Assembly: GCA_030669305.1 (NCBI GenBank)
Contig: DAOVDU010000007.1
Location: forward strand, 1-45,881
From: Candidatus Aminicenantota bacterium
Lineage (GTDB): Bacteria > Acidobacteriota > Aminicenantia > Aminicenantales > Aminicenantaceae
DNA length: 45,881 nt
Direction: 5' to 3'
The notes beneath the pieces were generated by a model. It was not told where the DNA came from and did not search any database. It saw only the letters and a program-made list of their open reading frames with translations. This document shows, in pieces, positions 1-17,221 of the stretch (position 1 is its first letter; the number at the start of each line of letters is the position of its first letter). The position numbers and the translations under genes were made by a program.

Positions 1-33
1 AGGTAAAGATGTTAGAACAACAATGGTGGCAAG

Positions 34-363
34 CTAATATCTTTTCTTTTTAATTTTAGCCAATTCGTGATTTTTATTTATTTTCCAATTTGTTATATGT
101 TTCACTGTGGTTATTTTTATCCCCACCAATTCTCTCACCAAACCTCTGACTTCCACTGCTTCTTGGATTAGATTTAACAATTCTTTTCCTTTGGAATCAT
201 TAATAACAAGATACTCTTCCTCTGTATGAGTCGAAATAGCAGTAGCGACCACGTTGCCTTTTTCATCCCAATCCACAGGGGTAACAATGCCTCTTATTGT
301 TATAAGTCCCTTTCTGTTTTCTATTTTCATCAGCTCATTAGAATCGGCTTTCGGATCATCCAT
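34..363 (-). CDS. Small OB-fold-like hypothetical protein
   Basis: A 109-residue ORF with a charged, non-repetitive sequence and no signal peptide or membrane segment. The middle part (about residues 22-92) alternates short beta-like stretches such as GLITIRGIVTPV, EEYLVIND and AVEVRGLVREL, which looks like a small OB-fold barrel. The C-terminus is basic (KIKKKRY) and could contact nucleic acid. No family was recognised with certainty. It is transcribed divergently from groESL and shares the 364-bp spacer with it. The start ATG at 363 is the first in frame. Function is unknown; the ORF is judged real from its composition and its lack of overlap with a better gene. Confidence 0.6.
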   Translation of the reverse strand: MDDPKADSNELMKIENRKGLITIRGIVTPVDWDEKGNVVATAISTHTEEEYLVINDSKGKELLNLIQEAVEVRGLVRELVGIKITTVKHITNWKINKNHELAKIKKKRY

Positions 364-580
364 ATCTATTTTTAAGCTGCATTTAACATGCCAACTTTTT
401 GTTCTTTTAATATTTAAGGGGGAATTTTCTTACAGGTTAAATCCATAACTGAATTATGAAATCAGAGGTTTTCATAATAGATTGCGTTTTGTCATTAGAG
501 AGCGTTAGTAATTTTTAATAATTAGTGTAAATTAAAGAGAACCTCAAACAAGAAATCCCAGTTCTGAATTTTAATTTTTA

Positions 581-595
581 GGAACTTTCAGTTCC
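581..595. promoter_or_regulatory. Palindromic upstream site of groESL (candidate enhancer-binding site)
   Basis: Perfect inverted repeat GGAACT-TTC-AGTTCC about 54 bp upstream of the -24 element of the sigma-54 promoter. A further half-site AGTTC lies at 560-564, so the half-site occurs three times in alternating orientation. Enhancer-binding activators of sigma-54 normally bind such dyads 80-150 bp upstream of the start. No activator gene lies nearby; the role is inferred from position and symmetry. Confidence 0.5.
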
Positions 596-646
596 GATTG
601 AAGTTTTCTTTTTTTCATAAAGATGGATTATTGAGAGTAGAAAATC

Positions 647-663
647 CTGGCACGAATTTTGCA
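647..663 (+). promoter_or_regulatory. Sigma-54 (RpoN) promoter of groESL
   Basis: CTGGCACGAATTTTGCA matches the sigma-54 consensus (TGGCACG-N4-TTGCW) at every key base. The invariant GG (649-650) and GC (661-662) are 12 bp apart, as required for the -24/-12 pair. Transcription should begin near 673-675, giving a leader of about 54 nt before groES. No sigma-70 promoter or CIRCE element (the HrcA site usual for groESL) was seen in the spacer. Confidence 0.8.
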
Positions 664-727
664 ATAATTTTATAGAAGGTTTTTCTAAGTAAAAATACAA
701 GATCTAATTTTAAGTGAGGAGATTCAA

Positions 728-1015
728 ATGAAAGTGATACCTTTACACGACAGAGTACTTCTTAAAAGGTTAGAAGAACAAGAAGTTAAGAAAGGCGGAA
801 TAATAATTCCCGACACAGCCAAAGAAAAACCCCAAGAAGCAAAAGTTGTAGAAGTGGGGAAAGGCCGCGTGACAGAAGATGGGAAGGTTATTCCTCTCGA
901 AGTTAAGAAAGGTGAAAAAGTTCTTATCGGTAAATTCAGTGGTACAGAGGTAGAAATTGGTGGAGTTGAATATGTTATCGTTCGTGAGGAAGAGATTTTA
1001 GCTAAAATCACCTAA
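728..1015 (+). CDS. groES: Co-chaperonin GroES (Hsp10)
   Basis: The 95-residue protein has normal length for the heptameric lid of the GroEL chamber. It begins with the family's characteristic [19 protein letters not shown] and contains the mobile-loop region around residues 17-32 ([18 protein letters not shown]), then GKGRV and the C-terminal [13 protein letters not shown]. The ribosome binding site GTGAGGAG lies 8 nt before the ATG. It is the first gene of the groES-groL operon, separated from groL by 20 bp, and is placed under a sigma-54 promoter at 647-663. It acts in the cytoplasm with GroEL in ATP-driven protein folding. Confidence 0.97.
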
Positions 1016-1023
1016 TTTTGTGA

Positions 1024-2649
<1,626 letters not shown>

Positions 2650-2742
2650 ATAGAATGGGTTGAGTGTAAAAATTACAAGGAGGAATTTGGATCAGGATCT
2701 TCTTGGATTGATTATAAATATATAGTTCCAAAAGATGATTAA

Positions 2743-2817
2743 ATGAGCAAGTTATTTTTTGCTCTTGTATTGATCGCTGCAGGTCCGACTTTTTTGTTTA
2801 TCACAAGATCAAGATGA
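2743..2817 (+). CDS. Possible tiny membrane peptide (24 aa)
   Basis: ATG-initiated ORF, too short for the ORF track, encoding MSKLFFALVLIAAGPTFLFI followed by TRSR: one hydrophobic helix with positive ends, the layout of a small single-span membrane peptide. No strong ribosome binding site stands directly before it, though an AAGGAGG motif lies about 60 bp upstream. It is the first of several tiny ORFs between groL and the sulfatase-fold gene. An overlapping inverted repeat (GAGCAA/TTGCTC, 2745-2764) could instead be a weak groESL terminator. Real status uncertain. Confidence 0.3.
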   Translation: MSKLFFALVLIAAGPTFLFITRSR

Positions 2818-2874
2818 GGGAGAGAAAGATTTTCATTTTCGGATCGATGATTTTTTGAAAGGAGGTAAAAGCTA

Positions 2875-3090
2875 ATGAAGGAAAAAGCTAAGATAGAACA
2901 TCCGGTAATTGAACGAGTCTTAGAAGAAATAAGCATCCTTGACAAAATCAACCGGCAATGGAAGGAAGGGGCGATATCAGAATTTCAGTTCTCAAGCACA
3001 CTCGATCAACTCCTGATAAGACTCAAGAAATATCAGACTGAGTTAAAAGCGCCTGATCTTCAAAGGCTTCAACGAAAAAAGACTCAATGA
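2875..3090 (+). CDS. Small charged helical hypothetical protein
   Basis: A 71-residue protein with a very good ribosome binding site (AAAGGAGG, 8 nt before the ATG). The sequence is rich in Leu, Ile, Lys, Glu and Gln and looks like two amphipathic helices (about residues 9-30 and 39-65), compatible with a coiled-coil or small helical bundle. No signal peptide or known motif was seen and the family is not recognised. It opens the block of small genes 2.7-4.8 kb downstream of groESL. Confidence 0.55.
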   Translation: MKEKAKIEHPVIERVLEEISILDKINRQWKEGAISEFQFSSTLDQLLIRLKKYQTELKAPDLQRLQRKKTQ

Positions 3091-16874: not shown

Positions 16875-17221
16875 GGGGGCGAACTGGATTCGACGGAGAT
16901 AATGAAACAGAGGTTGCATGTCGAGGCTCCACCCACCTCGTTAAAAAGGTGGAAAAAACTAAGTGCAGAACCACTGCCACTTGCTGCCTAAATAGTAGGC
17001 ATGCCGTTTCTCTTGCGCTTTCCTGCAGCGCTTGAGAGGCGTCGACAAGCAGGATAGCAAGTCAGGCCCGCCCTGAGCCTGGTAAGCGAAAAAACATCAG
17101 GACTGGTTCCATGGTATCTTTCTTCTTCAGAAGCCGTGGAACGAGATTTGAGAAGAGGATATACATGTAGAGACTTTCTGTTGAATGTCTTCGGACGCGG
17201 GTTCGATTCCCGCCGCCTCCA
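16875..17221 (+). ncRNA. ssrA: Transfer-messenger RNA (tmRNA)
   Basis: The 5' end GGGGGCGAACTGGATTCGACGG and the 3' end ACGCGGGTTCGATTCCCGCC-GCCTCCA are the conserved tRNA-like termini; GGGGGCG pairs with CGCCTCC (one G-T) to form the acceptor stem, discriminator A at 17221, and CCA is not encoded. The tag reading frame starts at GCA 16965 and encodes AEPLPLAA followed by TAA 16989-16991, giving an Ala-Ala C-terminus for proteolysis. The tag is short compared with the 10-residue E. coli reading frame. tmRNA rescues stalled ribosomes together with SmpB. Confidence 0.95.

Follow-up and report, generated by a model that had tools for sequence, protein, structure and literature searches.

Analysis of a 45,881-nucleotide stretch of DNA from a Candidatus Aminicenantota bacterium (the window; contig C104 in a 2.06-Mb genome assembled into 122 contigs) indicated that its groESL operon is an accessory copy, carried in a horizontally shared island and placed under an RpoN-dependent regulator that the island itself appears to encode, while a housekeeping groESL elsewhere in the genome would remain under HrcA/CIRCE control. 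We consider this reading probable, at roughly 0.86. The closest named relatives of the GroEL encoded in the window were found in Candidatus Aminicenantes MAGs. An Rfam search of window positions 1-3000 returned no match; a tmRNA gene with the tag AEPLPLAA lies further along, at 16875-17221.

The RpoN promoter before groESL

The spacer upstream of groES contained an exact match to TGGCACGN4TTGCW, which also meets TGGCAC-N5-TTGC with its GG and GC 10 bp apart, and which puts the predicted +1 of groESL near position 674 (Table 1). Exact sites of this kind numbered five genome-wide, against ~0.24 expected from base composition, and no stretch among 4000 simulated ones (350 nt, same composition) scored as high as the groESL spacer. 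When up to two mismatches were allowed, the genome held 181 sites, compared to 73 with a reversed control pattern. Many of the other top-scoring sites stood shortly 5' of open frames, for example a prepilin-like gene and activator-adjacent genes, which suggests that matches to the pattern carry information in this organism. The genome encoded rpoN (G000:C2, E 2e-60) and twelve strong sigma-54 activator genes. No CIRCE element was present in the window's groES spacer, where the best match was wrong at 6 of 18 positions, and a simple consensus scan of the same spacer found no sigma-70-like site.

In a member of another genus of the same family (G009), the orthologous operon was preceded by TGGCATGAATTTTGCT, which differs from the promoter in the window by only two changes (C to T in TGGCAY and A to T in TTGCW). 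The RpoN consensus permits each of them, and the promoter was thus retained while synonymous sites diverged. A third genus (G060) kept a recognisable promoter, TGGCACATTTTTCGCT, in front of a broken groES. Across ~60 groES genes of relatives, a strong RpoN promoter occurred only at this orthologous second copy in G009. In nearly all other relatives examined (~55 genomes), a CIRCE element or a sequence close to it stood before groES, and no strong RpoN match occurred among them. The first-pass annotation had proposed an RpoN promoter in a spacer free of CIRCE and sigma-70 sites, and both parts were borne out, including the presence of an rpoN gene; comparing the groES spacers of relatives, as it had suggested, showed TGGCAY and TTGCW kept in G009 and a CIRCE-type arrangement in nearly all the others. 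The accessory groESL copy very probably needs RpoN together with a dedicated activator encoded next door.

Table 1. Positions of features in the window, in the adjoining contig C108 and at related loci.
Feature	Position	Strand	Remarks
Overlap with end of C108	1-141	.	141 identical bases; same gene order in one G009 contig
Small conserved ORF	34-363	-	Between activator and groESL
Divergent RpoN-type promoter of small ORF	378-393	-	TGGCATGTTAAATGCA; conserved in three genera
First activator half-site (candidate)	560-565	+	AGTTCT (relatives: AGTTCC); second AGTTCC follows at exactly 30 bp
Activator palindrome (candidate)	581-595	+	GGAACT-TTC-AGTTCC, GGAACTTTCAGTTCC; conserved in G009 and G060
RpoN (-24/-12) promoter of groESL	648-663	+	TGGCACGAATTTTGCA; exact TGGCACGN4TTGCW match
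groES, accessory copy	728-1015	+	95 aa; ATG at 728
groEL, accessory copy	1036-2649	+	537 aa
Right end of stretch shared with G009	2650-2751	.	~97% identity; approximate right island edge
NtrC-family activator (EBP) gene	C108:13674-15074	-	Just left of window; reads away from groESL
Methyltransferase/ATP-grasp fusion	C108:9617-11602 (L214); L211:9157-11142; L212:6201-8210		RpoN-type promoter before all three
Degraded groES remnant, G060	L212:8362-8555	-	No groEL at locus
Perfect RpoN promoter and double AGTTCC operator before lysine-2,3-aminomutase-like gene	L229:10795-11128 (also L228, L230)		Adjoins activator orthologue

The activator, its operator and neighbouring genes

The centre of the candidate palindrome lay ~86 bp 5' of the predicted transcription start, and the operator as a whole takes the form AGTTCY-N24-AGTTCY, enclosing GGAACT-N3-AGTTCC. 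The palindrome was identical in the window and G009, and the operator was also kept in G060; ~98 (extra) bases separated operator and promoter in G009, so the spacing between the two is not fixed. A scan for terminators did not identify the palindrome as one. Matches to the spacer DNA in G002 and G031 were short, fell inside a coding gene and were attributed to chance.

Just to the left of the window, beyond the small ORF, an activator gene was located on contig C108. The assembly is fragmented, and the join between C108 and the window relies on 141 overlapping bp, the window starting inside the small ORF's intergenic end. This join agrees with G009, where a single contig carries the activator, the small ORF and then groESL in the opposite direction. 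Mis-binning of C108 was considered and rejected, because this contig carries, besides the island, housekeeping genes that are conserved and in synteny with those of several relatives. The predicted activator (466 aa) comprises a receiver-like domain, a sigma-54 AAA+ domain (PF00158, E 2e-65) with Walker A and B motifs, and a probable Fis-type HTH, whose PF02954 match was in the expected place at E 0.008, under the family cut-off, and whose sequence was strongly conserved in orthologues; GAFTGA was present in all six activator orthologues. This architecture and these motifs are shared with Aquifex NtrC1 (PDB 1ny5), but unlike NtrC1-type proteins all six orthologues have a receiver in which the acidic pair is lost and the conserved lysine is now Tyr, with the aspartate retained. 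Since most phosphorylation residues are missing, ordinary phosphorylation is doubtful, and the protein is unlikely to be the output of a conventional two-component system. The earlier proposal that the palindrome and an extra half-site lie where an enhancer-binding activator would sit found a counterpart in the adjoining gene.

Of 38 genomes of the family, exactly the same three carried the activator and the small ORF, and each of these has an RpoN-type groES, in one case (G060) as a pseudogene. Among the 396 genomes of the phylum that were searched, the only close activator orthologues apart from that of this genome (~61% identical, with a near-identical HTH) came from three members of a single distant family. 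The surroundings of these distant orthologues lacked groESL as well as the small ORF and the methyltransferase/ATP-grasp gene. Directly behind the distant activator gene we found AGTTCC-N24-AGTTCC, flanked by GGAACT/GGTACT arms, together with a perfect RpoN promoter (e.g. TGGCACGATAATTGCT), followed by a lysine-2,3-aminomutase-like gene. As the operator stands beside activator orthologues even where no groESL lies nearby, it appears tied to the activator and not to groESL, and it has been reused independently. All six operator elements, three from the family and three from the distant genomes, aligned gap-free with an identical 30-bp spacing. In 1.18 Mb searched, AGTTCY-N24-AGTTCY was found only at these six loci, while two control spacings of the same pair gave one and zero matches. 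Looking for the GGAACT dyad elsewhere, as had been suggested, was thus productive beside the activator orthologues of distant genomes but not within this genome, where exact GGAACTN3AGTTCC occurred once; a single-mismatch match at C63:3675 did not look like a regulatory site.

From this arrangement we infer that the activator binds the AGTTCC half-sites that separate the divergently read groESL and small ORF and, using ATP, would switch on RpoN-RNA polymerase at the groESL promoter, so that groESL would be expressed conditionally. It would likewise fire the divergent promoter of the small ORF, which reads TGGCATGTTTAATGCT in G009 and TGGCACGTTTAATGCT in G060. The small ORF is 109 aa long as an open frame, or 98 aa from its probable start at the ATG at 330; it had no Pfam or NCBIfam match, none was found on plasmids, and its predicted structure (pLDDT 39) was uninformative. 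Within the island, a gene for a SAM methyltransferase fused to a D-Ala-D-Ala-ligase-like ATP-grasp domain had its own RpoN promoter, at C108:9466 and also in G009; no clear AGTTCC dyad preceded this gene in this genome or in G009. In G060 the groES remnant, with its RpoN-like promoter, immediately preceded this gene.

Conservation of the divergent promoter in all three genera, and the survival of small ORF and activator in G060 where groES has decayed, would also fit a system in which the AGTTCC element and RpoN promoter mainly serve the small ORF, with groESL partly constitutive from an undetected promoter. We regard this as unlikely: the groESL promoter is the better RpoN match of the two and shows only consensus-compatible changes relative to G009, and the sigma-70 scan of its spacer was empty, though a weak constitutive promoter could escape such a scan.

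A chaperonin island in different genera

The island spans ~9.4 kb, from C108:8573 to approximately position 2751 of the window. Outside groESL it was mostly 90-99% identical to G009, and the activator was ~98-99% identical with a dS of 0.03, compared to a dS of 2.9 for the CIRCE-type groEL pair of the same two genomes. To the left of C108:8573, citrate synthase and other conserved genes had counterparts at 77-83% identity on another contig of G009. The two genera thus resemble each other much more closely in the island than in its flanks, which indicates that the island moved horizontally between them; the G009 island contig might be mis-binned, in which case the island would still be common to two lineages. 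A tRNA-Asp gene (C108:8193-8270, L214) lies ~300 bp from the left island edge, and in G009 a tRNA-Met gene (L211:7231-7307) lies ~800 bp from the corresponding edge. The two island ends had no 12-mer in common, no integrase was noticed among the annotated open frames of the island, and no nif genes were seen in it. TrkH-like and CorA genes were complete in C108, and an internal deletion in G009 has left fragments of them (L211:11349-11765).

The groESL portion itself was a mosaic, ranging from 74 to 98% identity in alignment windows (728-2649 against L211:14135-16056). Gene conversion from the CIRCE copy was rejected as its cause, as no alignment window was near-identical to the resident CIRCE copy. 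A GroEL protein tree was too poorly resolved on the sisterhood of the two RpoN copies, and synteny and spacer identity were used instead. Could the groESL copy of the window be a recent duplicate on its way out, with a relic promoter and no selected role? The groES pseudogene of G060, which has no adjoining groEL, and the mosaic groEL between this genome and G009 point that way, but groESL is intact in two genera, with a dN/dS of ~0.09 for groEL and 0.14 for groES between the orthologues, and its promoter was kept despite a groEL dS of 0.57 between the RpoN copies. This explanation seems improbable to us.

The housekeeping copy and comparison with known systems

A second, intact groES/groEL pair was present on contig C59 (L155) of the same genome, encoding full-length homologues 86% (GroES) and 88% (GroEL) identical to the proteins of the window. 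A perfect CIRCE stood before it at -123, together with a promoter of typical form, TTGACA-N17-TATATT, and hrcA was found in the genome. Normal heat-shock control therefore exists, and on the sequence evidence the groESL of the window is an accessory copy and not the main chaperonin. Both kinds of copy also occur in G009, where L156 is the one with CIRCE and L157/L211 the one with the RpoN promoter. The first-pass annotation had taken the operon in the window for the main chaperonin, so that basic protein folding would hang on an activator and ATP; its spacer free of CIRCE and sigma-70 sites is compatible with that, but the CIRCE-controlled operon and hrcA in the same genome, the two copies in G009 and the CIRCE-type copy of nearly all other relatives contradict it unless C59 stems from contamination and the same has happened in G009, and we consider it very improbable. 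Compared with the CIRCE/HrcA operons of these relatives, which encode homologous full-length GroES and GroEL, the copy in the window differs in having no CIRCE, in its RpoN promoter and activator site, and in its location on a shared island.

In rhizobia, accessory groESL copies are under RpoN control with NifA as the activator. As in the window, each is an additional copy whose -24/-12 promoter has activator sites 5' of it, and other copies are controlled by heat shock. However, NifA has a GAF domain where the activator described here has a degenerate receiver, and its site is TGT-N10-ACA, in contrast to GGAACT-N3-AGTTCC. The neighbouring activator scored 331 against a NifA cut-off of 529 and is not NifA. 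Such NifA- and RpoN-controlled groESL copies are known from rhizobia such as Bradyrhizobium (NifA regulon, PMC4999443), and the first-pass annotation had placed RpoN-controlled groESL mainly there. That was incomplete, as the portion of a 2025 survey that bears on chaperonins links RpoN to GroEL/GroES in Bacteroidota and Planctomycetota, also outside Proteobacteria as here (PMC12316311); this portion gives the link as a survey-level enrichment, with no cognate activator, operator or mobile island. In Myxococcus xanthus, groEL2 adjoins the orphan response regulator MXAN_4468, so that a duplicated groEL has a dedicated orphan regulator gene beside it as in the window, but MXAN_4468 regulates negatively, depends on phosphorylation and acts in concert with HrcA, whereas the gene here encodes an AAA+ sigma-54 activator (PMC9040617). 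What sets the present operon apart from known accessory RpoN-controlled groESL is its activator, its operator and its carriage on an island.

More tentatively, and with less than even odds, the locus may belong to a mobile, self-contained regulon in which a family of orphan activators with a degenerate receiver acts through AGTTCC dyads on different RpoN targets in each lineage in response to a shared stress. The targets would be a second chaperonin, the methyltransferase/ATP-grasp enzyme and a small protein here, and the lysine-aminomutase-like gene in the distant relatives. Given the TrkH-like and CorA genes in the island, that stress is possibly ionic or osmotic.

The accessory groESL with its island-encoded regulator offers a fully specified and testable example, from outside Proteobacteria, of activator-dependent RpoN control over an accessory chaperonin, for which both the activator gene and its operator could be identified from sequence alone. 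It corrects the stronger claim that protein folding in the whole organism is RpoN-dependent, and shows that a circuit of this kind can pass, as an island, from one genus to another while both retain their ordinary HrcA/CIRCE chaperonin.
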